Source: an uncultured Thermogutta sp.
GTDB lineage: Bacteria > Planctomycetota > Planctomycetia > Pirellulales > Thermoguttaceae
Length of the DNA: 64,000 nucleotides
Direction of reading: 5' to 3'
NCBI GenBank assembly: GCA_937128505.1
Contig: CAKZMM010000084.1
Span: 124,001-188,000 of the forward strand
Of the stretch, positions 30,813 through 39,390 are shown one piece after another. Under the pieces are notes generated by a model. The model did no database searches. It saw only the letters and a list, made by a program, of their open reading frames with translations, and had not been told where the DNA came from. The first letter of the stretch is position 1; the number at the start of each line of letters is the position of its first letter. The position numbers and the translations under genes were made by a program.

Positions 30813-31301
30813 TTATTGACCCGCCTTGATCGGAATCCGCCGGGATTGAGCTTCAGCGGTTTTCTTCAACCGGATGGTCAGGACGCCCTCGGCAAGCGTA
30901 GCTTCGATCTGCTCAGGATCGACCGTCTGCGGCAGATCGAGCACTCGGCGGAACTTGCCGTAACGGCATTCCGATCGGTAGTACCCACCTTCCTTCCGTT
31001 CGGCAGTTTCCTTCTTTTCGCCGGAAAGCGTCAGTTGCCGGCCGGTTACCGAAACCTCAATCTCCTCCGGTTTTAGACCCGGCACTTCGGCACGAAGCAC
31101 CACATGTTGCTCATCTTCGTGCACATCCACCGCAGGCCACCATGCCTGACCGGTGAACCACGCCGGCCAATCGAGGGCACCGAACGGTTCTGCGAAGAAT
31201 CTGTCAAAGAACCGGTCAAACTCCTCCCGCAAAAGCGCTAGAGGGGATTCCGCCGAACTTTGAACCTCCGAAACTTTCCGCCGCCAAGGAATCAATGCCA
31301 T
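30813..31301 (-). CDS. Small heat-shock protein, Hsp20 family (1)
   Basis: An ATP-independent holdase that binds unfolding proteins in the cytoplasm. The 162-residue protein has an N-terminal arm (MALIPWRRKVSEVQ ... DRFFDRFF) and an alpha-crystallin domain from about residue 55 (WWPAVDVHEDEQHVVLRAEV). The domain includes the hallmark PGLKPEEIEVSV and the late A-x-x-x-G-V-L-T motif LAEGVLTIRLKK. The C-terminal tail carries an I-x-I-like RRIPIK that docks neighbouring subunits. Ribosome binding site AAAGGAGG lies just upstream. It is the last of three hsp20 genes in tandem. Confidence 0.95.
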   Translation of the reverse strand: MALIPWRRKVSEVQSSAESPLALLREEFDRFFDRFFAEPFGALDWPAWFTGQAWWPAVDVHEDEQHVVLRAEVPGLKPEEIEVSVTGRQLTLSGEKKETAERKEGGYYRSECRYGKFRRVLDLPQTVDPEQIEATLAEGVLTIRLKKTAEAQSRRIPIKAGQ

Positions 31302-31458
31302 ATGCCACCTCCTTTCCCAACCTCCCGAATGTGAACTTTTGCGTTTCTAACGAGCCCTTTCCTTCCCCAAAAGCCGCAGACTAGAGACCTCGAATCGATC
31401 GCGCCGATTCGTGGCGAGCGGGACACATCGTGGATTCCATCTTTCACCTAAGCATGCG

Positions 31459-31857
31459 TCATTCTCCCGTTTTGACCGGGATTTTTCGCGGCTTTGCCGC
31501 TTCCGCCTTCGGCAGGTGCAAGGTGAGGACACCGTCGGTATAATCGGCGGCAATCTTGCTGGAATCGATGGTCTCGCTCACGCGGAAGGTGCGATGGTAA
31601 TCCCCGACTCTATACTCGCGAAGCAGAAACTCCGTATCCGGAGCTTGTCGCGGTTCAACCTTCGCATAGATCGTAAGCAACCCATCCTCGAAGTTCACAT
31701 CGATGTCTTCGGGCTTCGCTCCTGGTACCTCAGCCTGAACGACGATTTCTTCCGGAAGCTCTAGAATGTCGACTACTGGCTGGTAACAGGTACCGGAGCG
31801 GAGATGCTCCACTTTACCTTCCTCAGTGCGTCGTTTGACCCGAGTTTCGTTCGCCAT
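31459..31857 (-). CDS. Small heat-shock protein, Hsp20 family (2)
   Basis: A 132-residue Hsp20 with a short N-terminal arm (MANETRVKRRTEEGKVEH) and an alpha-crystallin domain beginning YQPVVDILELPEEIVVQAEV. It has PGAKPEDIDVNFEDGLLTIY, the late motif YTDGVLTLHLPKAEA, and the C-terminal KPRKIPVKTG. The start at 31857 is preceded by AAAGGAGG, and an ATG two codons earlier (31863) is also possible. A longer open frame upstream lacks family sequence. It is the shortest of the three, and the arm sequence differs clearly from its neighbours, so the trio is not a recent triplication. Confidence 0.94.
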   Translation of the reverse strand: MANETRVKRRTEEGKVEHLRSGTCYQPVVDILELPEEIVVQAEVPGAKPEDIDVNFEDGLLTIYAKVEPRQAPDTEFLLREYRVGDYHRTFRVSETIDSSKIAADYTDGVLTLHLPKAEAAKPRKIPVKTGE

Positions 31858-32019
31858 TGTCATCCCTCCTTTCCCTGGTTGTTCCCCGCCTCCGACCCCA
31901 ATGGGAAACAAGCACATTGAGAAATCAGAGGAATCGCTACGAAAGCTTGCCTTATCCGAATGCATTACCCACGTAAGAGACAGCCCACCATGACGGCAGA
32001 GCGCCCCCTTTTTCCCAAC

Positions 32020-32463
32020 TCATTTTGCAGCCACCACAATCTTCCGCGGCTTGGCGGCCGCAGCCTTGGGTACCCGGATCTTCAGGACTCCATACTGGAG
32101 CTCAGCTTGGACGGCGTCGGCCTGAACTTCGCCTGGCAATTGAACCACCCGGCTAAAGTCGCCGGCCCGCCGTTCTCGCCGATGATAGGTCACTCCCTCT
32201 TCCTTGGGCTCCGGCCAGTGAAGCTTGATGGAAAGCTCATTGCCGGCGACCGAAAGCTCCACCTGATCTGCCTTCAGACCCGGCACCTCTAACTCTACGA
32301 AGTACGCTTCAGAATCCTCCCAAATGTTTACCGGTGGACGCCCGCGCTCTACCCAAGCTGGACCGGGCCAGTCGGTCATATCCCTCAAGGTAGAGAGCAT
32401 GCGGTCCATCTCACGAAACAGGTGTGAAAACGGATCCCTTGCACCAAAGAAGCCTCGGCTCAT
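32020..32463 (-). CDS. Small heat-shock protein, Hsp20 family (3)
   Basis: A 147-residue Hsp20 with the N-terminal arm MSRGFFGARDPFSHLFREMD and an alpha-crystallin domain starting near residue 45 (PPVNIWEDSEAYFVELEV). It has PGLKADQVELSV, VTYHRRERRAGDFSR, the late motif LQYGVLKIRVPKAAA and the tail KPRKIVV. The ATG at 32463 has AGGAGGAGGG immediately upstream. A further upstream ATG at 32550 would bury that site in coding sequence. It is the first gene of the tandem trio, and its leader can fold over the ribosome binding site (listed separately). Confidence 0.94.
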   Translation of the reverse strand: MSRGFFGARDPFSHLFREMDRMLSTLRDMTDWPGPAWVERGRPPVNIWEDSEAYFVELEVPGLKADQVELSVAGNELSIKLHWPEPKEEGVTYHRRERRAGDFSRVVQLPGEVQADAVQAELQYGVLKIRVPKAAAAKPRKIVVAAK

Positions 32464-32490
32464 AACCCTCCTCCTTCGCGAAAAGATTAT
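32461..32490 (-). promoter_or_regulatory. Candidate RNA thermometer at the first hsp20 start
   Basis: On the minus strand ATAATC (32490-32485) can pair with GGTTAT (32467-32462), which includes the first two bases of the start codon. Inside, UUUU (32484-32481) can pair with AAGG of the Shine-Dalgarno run across a CGCG loop. This is the shape of a fourU-type heat-sensing hairpin. The inner stem is weak, so this is a suggestion only. Confidence 0.35.
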
Positions 32491-33060
32491 CCCGTCATTG
32501 TTCGCCCACTGACCCCTGATATTCGCCCCAGCCGGTTTGGCGTGAGTCACTTTGAGTTGTCCGAGTGAGGCAACCTGAAGATTTGGTTTCGCATTTGAAT
32601 TCCTTGCAAATCGAATGCCGATTATCGAAGAAAGAGCGCAAGTTCAATTGAAATAAAGACTTTCGATCAACAAAAATTTCGCCCATCCGGCCCTAAAACC
32701 ACTGCCAGATTGGCAGAGTTGGCTCTAAAATCAAAACACACCCATGACTACGATCAGAACTCCGAAAAGCCGAAAGGCCTCTAGCCCGAGGATGTACAAA
32801 ACATGGAGGGCACGTCAACTTTGCCCCGCCAACAAACCCAGCAGGTCCTATGCGCGATGTAGCATTGCGTATTCAATTGGCAAAAACGCAACCGAATAGA
32901 AATGGCACTAGACACTTTTCAAAAGATTAAGGGCTTCCTCTCGGAGGTAGTGGCAAAGACTGAACCACCTAGAAACGCCACTTGAAACCGCACTCCACTC
33001 GTCGGGCAACCAATAGGTTAGCCCGTCGACCCCGGGCCGGAAGCTAATCACACACGCGAT
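32464..33060. other. Intergenic region between ispH and the hsp20 cluster
   Basis: About 600 bases. Just past the ispH stop is a GC-rich hairpin (TTAGC/GCTAA outer with CCCG/CGGG inner, about 33018-33047) without a T-run. The hsp20 leader is at the other end. No CIRCE-like inverted repeat is seen. Confidence 0.5.
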
Positions 33061-34005
33061 TTAGCGGACTTCCAACGGAAGCGAGAAGTGGACGTTTTCC
33101 TTCTTAAAAGCATGCAGCTCCACTTCGGCTCCGAAATTCACGCGGAGATATTCGATACACTCTTCGACAAGCGTTTCTGGAGCACTAGCGCCTGCGGTAA
33201 CCAAGACCGTTTCCGTGCCTGCCAACCACTCCGGACGAATGGCCTCCGGACCATCGATCAAGTACGCTCGGCTTCCGGCCGCGGCAGCAATCTCGGCCAG
33301 TCGGCGACTATTCGAGCTATTTTGACTCCCCAAGACCAAGGTCACTTGGGCCAGAGGAGCAATGGCCCACACAGCCTCCTGTCGATTCTGTGTGGCATAG
33401 CAAACGTCGCCTTTTGGCGGACCCACTATTTTCGGAAAACGCTGACGCAATCGCTCGATAATCGCTTGAACATCTGTTACCGATAGGGTGGTTTGCGTGA
33501 GGTAGGCTACCTTTTCCGGGTCAGGCACCTCAAGGCGATCCACTTCTTCGATCGAACTGACGAGCCGGATTGATTGGGGAGCGTGCCCCATAGTTCCCAC
33601 GACTTCATCATGATCGGCATGACCGATTAAGATGATGGTAAAACCTCGCTCCGCCAGGCGTACGGCTTCCCGATGGACCTTAGTGACTAGGGGGCAAGTT
33701 GCATCGATGGTCCGCAACGATCGCGCTAAAGCATGCTGACGAACCGCCGGGGCAACGCCATGTGCGGAATACAGAAGTGTCGAGCCGGGGGGAACTTGCT
33801 CCAGATCGTCGACGAAAATCACCCCCCGGGATTTGAAGTGCGACACAACCCATTGATTATGGACAATCTCGTGATAGACATAGAGAGGACTTCCAAATAG
33901 GGTTAAAGCCCTCTCCAAAGTTTCAATAGCCATCCGAACGCCGGCACAAAAGCCGCGTGGTTCGACCAAAAAAACTCGCACCTTTCCACCACTATTTGCG
34001 ATCAT
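33061..34005 (-). CDS. ispH: 4-hydroxy-3-methylbut-2-enyl diphosphate reductase
   Basis: Last enzyme of the MEP pathway: reduces HMBPP to isopentenyl and dimethylallyl diphosphate using an iron-sulfur cluster. The 314-residue protein has all three cluster cysteines: C20 in VEPRGFCAGV, one in TIDATCPLVTKVHREA, and one in GDVCYATQNRQ. The substrate-binding serine/asparagine motif reads SQNSSNS, where many homologues have SKNSSNS. The gene diverges from the HpnC-like synthase, with 246 bases between them. A 22-bp duplication lies just before the start codon. Confidence 0.95.
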   Translation of the reverse strand: MIANSGGKVRVFLVEPRGFCAGVRMAIETLERALTLFGSPLYVYHEIVHNQWVVSHFKSRGVIFVDDLEQVPPGSTLLYSAHGVAPAVRQHALARSLRTIDATCPLVTKVHREAVRLAERGFTIILIGHADHDEVVGTMGHAPQSIRLVSSIEEVDRLEVPDPEKVAYLTQTTLSVTDVQAIIERLRQRFPKIVGPPKGDVCYATQNRQEAVWAIAPLAQVTLVLGSQNSSNSRRLAEIAAAAGSRAYLIDGPEAIRPEWLAGTETVLVTAGASAPETLVEECIEYLRVNFGAEVELHAFKKENVHFSLPLEVR

Positions 34006-34251: not shown

Positions 34252-35193
34252 ATGACTGCTTCGTTTCTTGCAACCGATTTGCAAAGCTACGGCCCGTTGA
34301 GCACCATCCGGGAATCTGTCCCCCTACGCCAGGCGCGGAAATACTGTCGGCAGCTTACCCGGCAGCATTTCGAGAATTTTACGTTTTTGCTACTATCTTT
34401 TCCGCGGTTTTTACGCCAGCACTTTTGTAATCTTTTCGCTTACTACCGGTGGGGAAAGGAGCTCGCCGATCAAGTGCGCGATTCAAAAACCAGCTTAGCA
34501 CTCTTGGACTGGTGGCACCACCTTCTAACTGAATGCTATGCCGGCCGTTCCAGCCACCCCGTTTTCGTGGCCTTGCAGGAAACCATTCGTCGCTTCGAAA
34601 TCCCGCGCGACCCTCTGGCCGAGCTCCTGGTGGCATTTCGCCAGGATCAACAACTTGCGCGCTACGAGTCGCCCGATCAACTATTGATCTACTGCCGATA
34701 TGCGGCGAATCCATGGGGCCGGCTCATCCTTTATCTCGGAGGTTGTCACGATCAGTTTCGCGGCTCTCTCGCTGATGCTATTTGCACGGGCCGTTGCTGG
34801 CTGCACATCTGCCAAAATGTTGCCGCGGCTTGGGCCCGGGGCCGAGTCTATCTACCGCAAACCCATTTGCGGCGTTTCGGTTGCTCCGAGGCTACCCTCA
34901 GTGAGCAGGCAATGACCGATGGGTTCAAACGATTAATCGAGGCCGAATTGGCCGAAGCCGAAGGGTGGCTTCGACGCGGCTTAGCCCTCGTAAACTATGT
35001 TCCACGTTGGCTTCAGTTCGTGGCAGCCCTAATGGTGCACGAAGGATTGACGCAAATCGAGATCTTGCGGCAATCTGGCTTCAACGTATGGTCACGCTCG
35101 TGCCGCCTAACGAGCCTTCAGAAATGGCAAGTGATGGTGAAAGTTTGGTGGCAATGGCGCCGAGGACTTCTCATGAAGGCTGCCGCCAGTTGA
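34252..35193 (+). CDS. Squalene/phytoene synthase family protein, HpnC-like
   Basis: A 313-residue member of the trans-isoprenyl synthase family. HpnC and relatives act on presqualene diphosphate on the route from farnesyl diphosphate to squalene and hopanoids. The fold-defining segments are present: HFENFTFLLLSFPRFLRQHFCNLFAYYRW, LLIYCRYAANPWGRLIL and ARGRVYLPQ. However, both aspartate-rich motifs that hold magnesium-diphosphate are changed. Where relatives have a DDxAD-type motif this protein has GKELADQ, and where they have QDVxRD it has QNVAAAW. It may be catalytically inactive, a partner subunit, or an enzyme with altered chemistry. It diverges from ispH, which makes precursors for the same pathway. 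No hpnD or hpnE gene is in the window. Confidence 0.75.
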   Translation: MTASFLATDLQSYGPLSTIRESVPLRQARKYCRQLTRQHFENFTFLLLSFPRFLRQHFCNLFAYYRWGKELADQVRDSKTSLALLDWWHHLLTECYAGRSSHPVFVALQETIRRFEIPRDPLAELLVAFRQDQQLARYESPDQLLIYCRYAANPWGRLILYLGGCHDQFRGSLADAICTGRCWLHICQNVAAAWARGRVYLPQTHLRRFGCSEATLSEQAMTDGFKRLIEAELAEAEGWLRRGLALVNYVPRWLQFVAALMVHEGLTQIEILRQSGFNVWSRSCRLTSLQKWQVMVKVWWQWRRGLLMKAAAS

Positions 35194-35573
35194 GGAGGCC
35201 GTTAGCTATCTCGTCGAAATCTCAATCTATCTCGTCGAAATCTGACTAACCACGCCACGAGAAAGCGACACAAGCCGGTTCGAATGGCTCTGTCATAAAA
35301 AAGTACGAATGCTTCTGGCATAGAAGAAAAGAGCTAGCACGCACAGTTCTTTCCGCGTGATATCCCGGAAGCGACTCCTGCACCCCTCGCGACGGCGTCA
35401 CCCCACCCAGCCACGCGCGCCGCCAAGCCCCCCCTCATACAGCGGGCGGTGCTCATTCAGCCTACAACCCGGTCCCCCACGCGCTAAGCTTCCCCAGCCG
35501 CATACCCCAACATAGCTTTCGCCAGCCGGAGCGTTGTCAGAAACACGCTCAATCAGAGCGTTCTCGCCAAGGC
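35194..35573. other. Intergenic region between convergent genes
   Basis: Contains a 17-bp near-tandem duplication (35206-35243) right after the synthase stop. Otherwise I see no gene or clear terminator. Confidence 0.5.
35206..35243 (+). repeat. 17-bp near-tandem duplication
   Basis: CTATCTCGTCGAAATCT occurs at 35206-35222 and, after four bases, at 35227-35243, with no mismatch. It starts 13 bases after the stop codon of the HpnC-like gene. Confidence 0.85.
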
Positions 35574-38462
35574 TTATTCTTCCCCGGTGCCTTGCGGCTG
35601 GCTTTCCGCCTGATTTGACGCGGCTTTGAGCGGCTTGCGAATCCATTCGGCAAGTAGTTCCAACTCTTCCTGCGACATAAGATTCTTATGATCTTCCTCC
35701 GCAGGAAAAGCACGATAAGAAGGCATTCCGTCGTTCTTTTGACCGTAGAACCGTCTATGGGCCGGATCCGCAATGATGTCAGCCGTCCATTTTTTCGAAC
35801 CGTACGCGGTCAGATCGGGCCCCGATCCTCCGCCAATGTCGTAAAATTTGTGACAGTCGGCGCAAGTGAAATCCTCAAACAGTAACTTTAAATCCTCATC
35901 AACCTCATCCGGGGCCGCCGGCTGATCGCGCTCCGCTTCCTTCGCCAAACCATCGATTAAACGATCCAGCTCGTCCCTGCCGATTTCCTCAACCAATTCG
36001 CGGAGATTGCCGCGAACAAATTTCACCATATCTCCATTGGCAAAGGCAGAATTACCGAAATACTTTGGGCCCGCGACTTGCTTCGGGTCGAGCATTCCAG
36101 CAATCCATTCGCGACTCCCGAATCCGCCAAGATCCGGAGCGCTAGGCTTTTCCGCCACGATGTCGAGCTTTACATCCGCGTGCCCGGTATAGTTATGACA
36201 GAGGCTGCACAGTTCCTTCTGATAGAGCCAGCGGCCGAGCGCATCGTTGTCCCCAGGGGCCGGAGTGGATACGGCTACCTGCCGGGCCTCCCAACGACCC
36301 GCCACCAAAAGCGGTGGTTCGGGAGGCTCTAGCCCCCCCTGAACCATCCCACCCTGTTGAGGACCACCTGCATCCGCCCCTTTGGCCGCCGGTGAGGGCG
36401 GCTCATACCACTTGCCGCGGACAAACTGTGCCAGGACTGCCACCTCCTCAGAGCGGAGCCGGTTAGCCGCCGGGTCGCCGGGCTTCGCAAGATACGAGGG
36501 CATTCGGTCATTACGTGCCCCGTAGAAATAGCCGTGGCCCGGATCCATCAGGATTCCCACCACCCATTCGTACGAGCCATATCCGTCTAGCACGGGGACA
36601 AATCCCACGGGGCCACGGCCCTCATAACGATGACATTGCGTACAGTGCTCCACAATAAGTTGCCTACCGCGCTGCAAGCGCTCGTCGCCTTGCCACGATG
36701 CCGCTCCCGAGACATCCTCCTGAGCCTCGGCCGCTAAAGCCGTTATGATGGCCTGCTGATCCTCCTCGGAAAGTTGAACAAAACGCGTTTGGACATAGCG
36801 CACCATCGCACTGGCAGCAAACCGCGTATTGCCGAAATATTCGGCCGTCCCGACGCGCTTCGGATCCAAAAGTCCGGCAATCCACTCCCGGGTAGCAAAT
36901 CCAAAAAGTTCTGGAGCCGAAGGCTTCTCGCTCACAGCGTTTAGCCCGCTCGGGCCACTGTAGTTGTGGCAGATTACGCAATGTTTCTTGAAAAGCTCCA
37001 ACCCGCGCACCTTCGGATCACCGGCTATCAATGCCAACCCGCCACCGGGGGGAAAGCCGCCGTACGCCTCCGCCAGTTGCCTGACCCGCGTTGCAAGCTG
37101 CTTGCCTTCGGCAACCGTCAACAGGTACTCCGAACTGTGAGCATCGTGGCGGAAGGATGTCCAGGAAAGGACCACCAGAGCCAGCACGATCACACTTGTC
37201 ACCACAATATTGATCAAGTGTCCATAGCTCCACCGCGCAATAAACGGCATCAGGATAAAGAAAAGCGCCGTCAGACCCGGGAGGACAAAAACAGGCACAA
37301 TCTGCCACGAAAGGCCCAAGCCGGGGATGGCCTCCCCAGGAAAAAGCTTCGTGAGTTGATATAGCCCCCGGAAGCTCCATTCCGGCCTTGCGGCAGCATA
37401 CGCGCGTGCCGGATCTTGATCCGCCGGTGCTAAGAGCCCCACCCCCCATGTGTGCGTCGCGGCGTCCGTGCCGACGTATTCCCACGGATGAAAGACAAGC
37501 AAAAAAATAACCCCCAAAACTGCCAACCAAACCACGGCATTTCGCCAGAACTGATTCGGCCAGTAAGGCTCCCCGTAGCTTTTCTCACAAAGCAGCTTCT
37601 CCTTTCCGGCTTGTCGAAACCAAAACCGGCGAAGCCCCGAGCAAATCGCACATTGAGGGGTCGCGTGGGCAGGGTCCAGGGCTTCCGCCCTTCGTAAAAA
37701 CCAGTGATGCACCGCAAAAATTAGCCCAAATCCCGTCGCTATCACCCCGACATGCAGGGAGAAAAACCGGCTCAAAGTGTGATGTCCGAAGCTCGGTCCG
37801 CCCGCAGCTAGGGCAAACAAGTCGTCGCCAATCCACGGAATCAAGAGGAGGAACCGCACTCGAACCAATGTCGCGGAATAAGCATTCTGATCCCAACACA
37901 ACAAATCGCCCGTTAGGCAGCCCCCCAAGCTCAAAACCAGCATGATGAGGGCTGTCCAGAAGACTAACTCCCGCGGCGCCCGATACCCCCCGGAAAAAAT
38001 TAAGTGTAGAACGTAGATACCGACTAAAGCCACCAGGACCTGCGCCGAATAATGATGGATTCCCCGCACCAACCAACCGCCTGGCAAAATGTATTGAATG
38101 TAGTACACACTTTCCCAAGCGGTCTGAGCGCTCGGGCTATAGTAACCCCAAAGGATGAAACCCGTGATTGCCTGAACGACTAAAGTGAACAAAATTGCAC
38201 TGGGCCACACGCGGCACCAGCTTGCTCCTCCGGGGATTATTCGGCCGTAAGTCGCTTTCCACAATTTGGACCATCCGGTGCGGTCTTCCCACCAGCTCAT
38301 CACCGGACACTTAGAAGCACCGGTTTCCCCGACGCCCGACTCAGTCTGCATTCCAACCGGGCCCGATTCTTGGGATGGCCGATTCTTCGCAGCCTCACCC
38401 TCAGTTGCACCTTCAGCGCTTTTGTGATCTAGGAAAGACGAACCTGGCGGCTCCACGGTCAT
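35574..38462 (-). CDS. Cytochrome b fused to a tail with four c-type heme motifs
   Basis: A 962-residue membrane protein, the quinol-oxidising core of a bc-type complex, encoded just after the Rieske gene. Residues about 70-460 are cytochrome b: a b6-like N-terminal part with GGWLVRGIHHYSAQ, TGDLLCWDQNAYSA and RFFSLHVGVIATG ... AVHHWF, then a subunit-IV-like part. The remaining half is exported and carries four CXXCH heme sites: CVICH (about residue 492), CTQCH (606), CSLCH (750) and CADCH (865). They fall into repeated blocks such as SAPELFGFATREWIAGLLDPKRV and GGFGSREWIAGMLDPKQV, so the tail arose by internal duplication. The second histidine of the first heme-binding helix is displaced (see findings). 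The partner oxidase is not in the window. Confidence 0.9.
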   Translation of the reverse strand: MTVEPPGSSFLDHKSAEGATEGEAAKNRPSQESGPVGMQTESGVGETGASKCPVMSWWEDRTGWSKLWKATYGRIIPGGASWCRVWPSAILFTLVVQAITGFILWGYYSPSAQTAWESVYYIQYILPGGWLVRGIHHYSAQVLVALVGIYVLHLIFSGGYRAPRELVFWTALIMLVLSLGGCLTGDLLCWDQNAYSATLVRVRFLLLIPWIGDDLFALAAGGPSFGHHTLSRFFSLHVGVIATGFGLIFAVHHWFLRRAEALDPAHATPQCAICSGLRRFWFRQAGKEKLLCEKSYGEPYWPNQFWRNAVVWLAVLGVIFLLVFHPWEYVGTDAATHTWGVGLLAPADQDPARAYAAARPEWSFRGLYQLTKLFPGEAIPGLGLSWQIVPVFVLPGLTALFFILMPFIARWSYGHLINIVVTSVIVLALVVLSWTSFRHDAHSSEYLLTVAEGKQLATRVRQLAEAYGGFPPGGGLALIAGDPKVRGLELFKKHCVICHNYSGPSGLNAVSEKPSAPELFGFATREWIAGLLDPKRVGTAEYFGNTRFAASAMVRYVQTRFVQLSEEDQQAIITALAAEAQEDVSGAASWQGDERLQRGRQLIVEHCTQCHRYEGRGPVGFVPVLDGYGSYEWVVGILMDPGHGYFYGARNDRMPSYLAKPGDPAANRLRSEEVAVLAQFVRGKWYEPPSPAAKGADAGGPQQGGMVQGGLEPPEPPLLVAGRWEARQVAVSTPAPGDNDALGRWLYQKELCSLCHNYTGHADVKLDIVAEKPSAPDLGGFGSREWIAGMLDPKQVAGPKYFGNSAFANGDMVKFVRGNLRELVEEIGRDELDRLIDGLAKEAERDQPAAPDEVDEDLKLLFEDFTCADCHKFYDIGGGSGPDLTAYGSKKWTADIIADPAHRRFYGQKNDGMPSYRAFPAEEDHKNLMSQEELELLAEWIRKPLKAASNQAESQPQGTGEE

Positions 38463-38763: not shown

Positions 38764-39390
38764 TTATTCGGGAATTTTCTCCGGGGTACCAGTGCGAAAA
38801 TTCATGAACTGGACCCATACCTCGTTCCCGTTGCGCACCTCGGCTTCCAAAATGTCTAAGTCACGCGGACTCATCGAGTTCGGCTCCAAGCGTTTTCCTT
38901 CTAGGTCAAAACTCGCCGAGTGGCACGGGCAAAACAACCTTTTGGACTCCGCCTGATATTCGACGGCACAACCTTGATGAGGGCAAAAGACATTGATCGC
39001 GAGAACTTTGTCAGGGCCCAACCGCCGCAAAAGCACTCCGCCTATCGGCTGATTGGGGACCCGATTCCACGCGTCCACACGGTCGGCCAACACTGGCACA
39101 CTAAGCGGTGAACCATCTTCGGGAATGGCATCCAGAAATGCCACCCGGCGGAAATCCCCGGCTTGTGCCTTTTGACCAAGCGGGCCTAAAAATGCCCGCA
39201 ATCCGGCAACGATCGGAGCCCCATACGCAACCACGGCTGCTCCCCAGCCAACGAGCCACATCAGCCAACCCCGCCGGGGTGTCGAGCTTGCCACTTCCGT
39301 TAAAGAACCGCTCCCCGCGGAGCCTGAAGCCCCCAATGGAGTTCTTTCCGGGGACAATTCTCCGCCTGCCGTAAAGCCCTCGTTACTCAT
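38764..39390 (-). CDS. Rieske [2Fe-2S] protein of the bc complex
   Basis: A 208-residue membrane-anchored iron-sulfur protein that takes electrons from quinol and hands them to c-type heme. After a polar N-terminal tail (about 35 residues) there is one hydrophobic helix (RRGWLMWLVGWGAAVVAYGA). The cluster ligands are CPHQGCAVEY and CPCHSASFD, a standard C-x-H ... C-x-x-H arrangement with the disulfide cysteines. It lies upstream of the cytochrome b-c fusion on the same strand with a 301-base gap, so the two very likely form one complex. The first ATG is used, and no closer alternative is better. Confidence 0.93.
   Translation of the reverse strand: MSNEGFTAGGELSPERTPLGASGSAGSGSLTEVASSTPRRGWLMWLVGWGAAVVAYGAPIVAGLRAFLGPLGQKAQAGDFRRVAFLDAIPEDGSPLSVPVLADRVDAWNRVPNQPIGGVLLRRLGPDKVLAINVFCPHQGCAVEYQAESKRLFCPCHSASFDLEGKRLEPNSMSPRDLDILEAEVRNGNEVWVQFMNFRTGTPEKIPE

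Follow-up and report, generated by a model that had tools for sequence, protein, structure and literature searches.

An HpnC-derived protein with a dismantled active site, probably re-used as a pseudoenzyme, in Thermoguttaceae lacking the hopanoid pathway

Described proteins with the squalene/phytoene synthase fold

NDUFAF6 and Candida NDU1 belong to the squalene/phytoene synthase (SQS/PSY) family, have neither DxxxD motif and are required to assemble mitochondrial complex I (PMC8007014). YisP of Bacillus, of the same fold, has been described as an FPP phosphatase (PMC10148934). The carbazole prenyltransferases CqsB4 and LvqB4 (7VWT and 7VWS) are active enzymes in which the SQS/PSY fold has been put to new use. 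Within the literature available to us, a search on HpnC pseudoenzymes and on hopanoids in Thermoguttaceae retrieved no relevant report.

Here we analysed a gene lying in a stretch of 64,000 nucleotides (the window) from an uncultured Thermogutta sp. of the Thermoguttaceae (Planctomycetota). It maps to positions 34252..35193 of the plus strand and encodes, from an ATG start, a 313-aa protein that resembles the hydroxysqualene synthase HpnC (TIGR03464; crystal structure 4HD1) over its whole length, in its fold, in its framework residues and in its location beside ispH. However, it scores under the HpnC family cut-off and is devoid of the aspartate motifs, of Tyr62, Gln182 and Asn185, and of the HpnD and HpnE companions. 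With NDUFAF6 and NDU1 it has in common an SQS/PSY fold without both DxxxD motifs and, as proposed here, retention for a role other than squalene synthesis, but it belongs to another lineage and nests within planctomycete HpnC. Loss of the first aspartate motif on the same fold is shared with YisP (3WE9), whereas the second motif, kept in YisP, is broken in two of the three copies of this genus, and identity in structural alignment is 16-18%. Identity to the two carbazole prenyltransferases, which differ in being active enzymes, is 16-19%.

An altered active site at the ancestral hpnC locus

The protein carries a single squalene/phytoene synthase domain (residues 37-290), and its match to PF00494 (162 bits against a cut-off of 26; E 2.3e-47 in Pfam) places it in the superfamily. 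Its top NCBIfam match was HpnC (TIGR03464) at 214.2 bits, under the equivalog cut-off of 250.45. The open reading frame, the family and the alteration of both aspartate motifs, all proposed by an earlier sequence-only reading of this DNA, were confirmed. An AlphaFold2 model built on 25 aligned sequences (mean pLDDT 94.3, pTM 0.91) found its top structural match in crystal HpnC 4HD1 (Z 33.4, rmsd 1.8 over 257 residues). CrtM-like enzymes matched equally well or less well, and YisP and squalene synthases less well, so that the HpnC fold is predicted to be intact.

Alignment with the HpnC of relatives, gap-free across both motifs, located the changes. The former first aspartate motif, now GKELADQ (34453..34473, plus strand), belongs to a segment reading W67-G68-K69-E70-L-A-D73-Q in place of W-(A/S)-D-D-L-A-D-E; Lys69 and Glu70 replace the first and second Asp, and D73 is kept. 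Instead of the DDxxD of HpnC there is KELAD here, and KDLSL and KDLSI in the two congeners described below. The former second motif, now QNVAAAW (34813..34833, plus strand), reads Q188-N189-V-A-A-A193-W for Q-D-V-x-x-D-W, with Asp189 changed to Asn and Asp193 to Ala, leaving NVAAA where HpnC has DxxxD. Just ahead of it, the helix segment GRCWLHIC (34789..34812, plus strand) stands for GLQLANFW, that is, CTGRCWLHIC versus CTGLQLANFW, with loss of Gln182, Leu183 and Asn185; Trp183 occurs in all three genus members. Beyond both Asp motifs, therefore, the active-site residues Tyr62, Gln182 and Asn185 have also gone. Since D69, D73, D189 and D193 each occur in 64/64 of the other HpnC sequences compared, as do Y62, L183, Q182 and N185, the motif changes are not family variation; this comparison set comprises planctomycetes, acidobacteria and others. 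In an HMMER alignment with S. aureus CrtM, positions 69, 73, 182, 185, 189 and 193 are the counterparts of CrtM D48, D52, Q165, N168, D172 and D176. As for whether neighbouring positions supply the missing acidic residues, the answer differs between the motifs: the first retains one Asp (D73) together with a conservative Glu at position 70, and the second gains none. A sequencing or assembly error was discarded as the cause of these changes, the same condition being present in two independently assembled congeners. Elsewhere in the family, the HpnC of L024, L113 and L115 (genus g31) reads ADNLAD, with the second Asp of motif 1 changed to Asn, and in these genomes HpnD lies on a contig other than that of hpnC.

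The gene diverges from ispH (33061..34005, minus strand), as the sequence-only reading had noted. In relatives with intact enzymes, ispH likewise lies divergent beside hpnC, which is followed by hpnD and, where placed on the same contig (e.g., G005:C256 and G012:C120), next by hpnE. The divergent arrangement of ispH and the altered gene is kept in all three genus members. In the interval where relatives carry hpnD and hpnE (35194..35573), and in the following genes, a tblastn search with four HpnD proteins revealed no hpnD remnant, nothing scoring better than E 0.2. In the tree, the three altered proteins group together with full support and, set apart by a long stem (0.75), nest within Thermoguttaceae HpnC; identity between the window protein and the HpnC of planctomycete relatives is about 41-52%. 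Conservation of the locus beside ispH and this nesting indicate common descent and identify the gene as the original hpnC, neither imported nor a second paralog; profile scores and tree ruled out both a horizontal origin and membership of another subfamily (HpnD, CrtB). The same tree, built without NDUFAF6, puts the window protein inside planctomycete HpnC, which argues against NDUFAF6 orthology. No conserved neighbour except ispH was found across the three genus members that could represent an operon partner. The isoprenoid context previously read from ispH is consequently an inherited one and no evidence of a present role, as divergent ispH is ancestral beside intact hpnC. The surroundings also contain a row of three small heat-shock (Hsp20-like) genes (30813-32550, minus strand) and a cytochrome b (35574-38462, minus strand) that continues into a long fused C-terminal part, where four CxxCH haem sites occur in a twice-repeated arrangement; a Rieske protein (38764-39390) adjoins it.

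Pathway loss and distribution in the genus

The window protein is the sole PF00494 protein in a 5.6-Mb draft genome that is 98.3% complete, and exactly one such protein was also found in each congener (G001 and G002; the two are 92 and 95% complete). Most of the family carries two, HpnC and HpnD, usually adjacent. With one protein per genome, the PF00494 search yielded no HpnD in the window genome or either congener, and no second, intact HpnC elsewhere in the window genome, for which the earlier reading had advised a search. Neither HpnE above cut-off, nor a true squalene-hopene cyclase, nor HpnH was found in the three genus genomes; among family members searched alongside, HpnE exceeded its cut-off in 5/7, squalene-hopene cyclase matched strongly in 6/7 and HpnH was detected in 3/3. 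The accompaniment by HpnD and HpnE that is expected of HpnC is accordingly missing from the window genome, and the absence of HpnD, HpnE, squalene-hopene cyclase and HpnH from the genus contradicts the hopanoid-like route suggested earlier. The window genome does encode two polyprenyl synthases; prenyl diphosphates are therefore made, although the route onward to squalene and hopanoids is missing.

Two further observations concern cyclases in the family. In several Thermoguttaceae, a weak squalene-hopene-cyclase-like protein (a frame of about 660-790 aa) adjoins a divergent polyprenyl synthase (G001:C5, ~171.7-175.5 kb; G002:C66, ~75-79 kb; G024:C40; G026:C1, ~2.39 Mb). This pair possibly represents an unrelated terpene pathway, and it was not found in the window genome. 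The family member G009 (87% complete) has a strong squalene-hopene cyclase match but lacks both an SQS/PSY protein and an HpnE that reaches the cut-off; either its cyclase is an orphan or contigs are missing from the assembly.

In both congeners, too, the single gene next to ispH has its motifs dismantled, to WGKDLSLH/FNLARN in G001 and WGKDLSIH/RDLAMD in G002. Lys occupies position 69 in all three genus members. Besides this K69, the residues F62, G68, H89, W183, E264 and W292 are new and common to the three copies, these seven being absent from the 64 intact HpnC; T18 is likewise common to the three only, but lies in the N-terminus, where the alignment is poor. Motif 2 retains its two Asp in G002 and is broken in the window copy and G001, so that the YisP-type combination of a lost first and a kept second motif occurs in G002 and in neither of the other two. 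Given this Asp pair and D73 of the window copy, single species may still bind some metal. When patterns derived from the altered proteins were run against 84,980 species genomes, altered motifs turned up only in the two congeners, the remaining matches being intact. In a profile search covering 119 genomes of the family, the three altered proteins scored 593-623 bits and any other at most 394. These amount to one pattern scan and one profile search, and more carriers could exist beyond the three found. All three genus genomes are draft assemblies, two of them known metagenome bins.

Selection on the altered gene and its possible functions

The three genus proteins are 47-63% identical, and the alignment of their genes spans 312 codons, uninterrupted by internal gaps. 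Third positions differ in 64-67% of codons and second positions in 22-36%. A codon model yielded an omega of 0.044 for the three altered genes, as compared with 0.050 for ispH of the same genomes and 0.011 for a trio of intact HpnC, values to be read as rough estimates because dS is saturated and the exact figure is unreliable. Fixing omega at 1 lowered the log-likelihood from -3174.7 to -3325.3, a cost of ~151 units (2dlnL about 301), and neutrality of the altered hpnC genes is firmly rejected. Within the genus, the evolutionary rate of the HpnC-like protein is 1.4-1.65 times that of IspH; for intact pairs the median ratio is 1.10. Of the 53 alignment columns whose conservation in HpnC reaches at least 95%, 14 are changed in the window protein, 22 and 19 in the congeners and 0-5 in intact canonical proteins. 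All three species kept 23/31 of these columns outside the motif helices and 5/22 inside (Fisher p 0.0003, a descriptive value, as the helix boundaries were set after the column list had been seen). Descent from hpnC, loss of the pathway, loss of active-site residues and retention of the protein by selection are what the data show for this genus.

We consider it probable that the protein is a bacterial pseudoenzyme derived from HpnC, which survived the loss of its pathway and took on a non-catalytic role. A lineage of Thermoguttaceae has lost hpnD, hpnE, the squalene-hopene cyclase gene and hpnH, while hpnC remained beside ispH and shed the residues that bind Mg-diphosphate and ionise the substrate, its fold and framework staying under purifying selection. 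The protein would then have no (hydroxy)squalene synthase activity left and would act by binding, because Mg-dependent ionisation of diphosphate as in HpnC should not proceed without the Asp clusters. Its target may be a partner protein or a membrane component, as for NDUFAF6 and NDU1 in the assembly of respiratory complex I, or else a prenyl diphosphate gripped without metal by Lys69, Arg66 and Arg198 and sensed instead of converted. On the pattern of residue conservation, a scaffold or assembly role appears somewhat more likely than metal-free sensing, because the residues expected to hold the diphosphate vary among the three species, unlike the outer framework: one genus member has Lys for Arg66, and the congeners have Phe or Arg for Gln188. 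We rather doubt, without dismissing it, a more specific version in which the protein is a metal-free receptor for a prenyl diphosphate or lipid and, in a bacterium without hopanoids, signals the state of isoprenoid supply or acts as chaperone to a membrane complex; the replacement of the first catalytic Asp by Lys69, together with the shared W183 and E264, might reshape the pocket to allow binding without ionisation.

The strongest rival to the pseudoenzyme reading, although itself unlikely, is that the protein has remained catalytic but with altered chemistry, for example as a YisP-like prenyl-diphosphate phosphatase or in a different condensation, acting on prenyl diphosphates from the polyprenyl synthases of the genome. 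The substrate would be at hand from the two polyprenyl synthases, the fold and pocket helices are predicted to be intact, CqsB4 and LvqB4 show that the SQS/PSY fold can switch chemistry, and YisP itself does without the first Asp motif (aligned as FCHTAASADE). However, the motif that YisP keeps (SDLGTD) is broken in the window copy (N189/A193) and in G001 (N/N), and the catalytic positions differ across the three species, which is unexpected for a common new chemistry, with the shared K69, W183 and E264 as the exception. The sequence-only reading had left the choice between a non-catalytic protein and changed chemistry, and that alternative holds up, as three species have lost the residues that bind metal and substrate in a protein conserved elsewhere. 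Continued synthesis of hydroxysqualene with acidic residues supplied from elsewhere is hardly credible, despite the predicted tertiary fold and the persistence of D73 and E70 in the window copy: all three species have Lys for the first Asp and have lost Tyr62, Gln182 and Asn185, and there is neither HpnD to provide presqualene diphosphate nor HpnE or squalene-hopene cyclase to take the product.

Slow decay of a functionless relic since the loss of the hopanoid pathway would accommodate the missing pathway, an active site that degenerates differently in each species and an evolution faster than that of intact HpnC. Yet the selection test largely refutes it and we regard it as very unlikely: neutrality fails by about 150 log-likelihood units, the three orthologs keep a full-length, ungapped frame at their level of divergence, and losses cluster in the motif helices with most of the outside columns kept. 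More improbable still is the partner subunit envisaged by the sequence-only reading, a non-catalytic subunit of a catalytic HpnC or HpnD, comparable to the small subunits that certain heteromeric prenyltransferases possess. Non-catalytic small subunits without DDxxD are indeed known among trans-prenyltransferases (PMC7839719), but neither the window genome nor the two congeners encode another SQS/PSY-family protein with which it could pair, and partnership with a PF00348 prenyl synthase, though conceivable, finds no support.

If re-use as a pseudoenzyme is correct, the loss of both motifs parallels that in NDUFAF6 and NDU1 and is apparently independent of it, because the window protein is nested inside planctomycete HpnC; the analogy carries no claim of action on complex I. 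In this bacterial case, close relatives reveal the enzyme of origin, the pathway that disappeared, the locus and active sites at different stages of loss. Were the protein a metal-free receptor, a terpene-condensing enzyme would have outlasted its own pathway through a new role. For biomarker work, it matters that an hpnC annotation is no proof of hopanoid or squalene production: homology alone could label this genus a squalene maker, although the entire route is missing.
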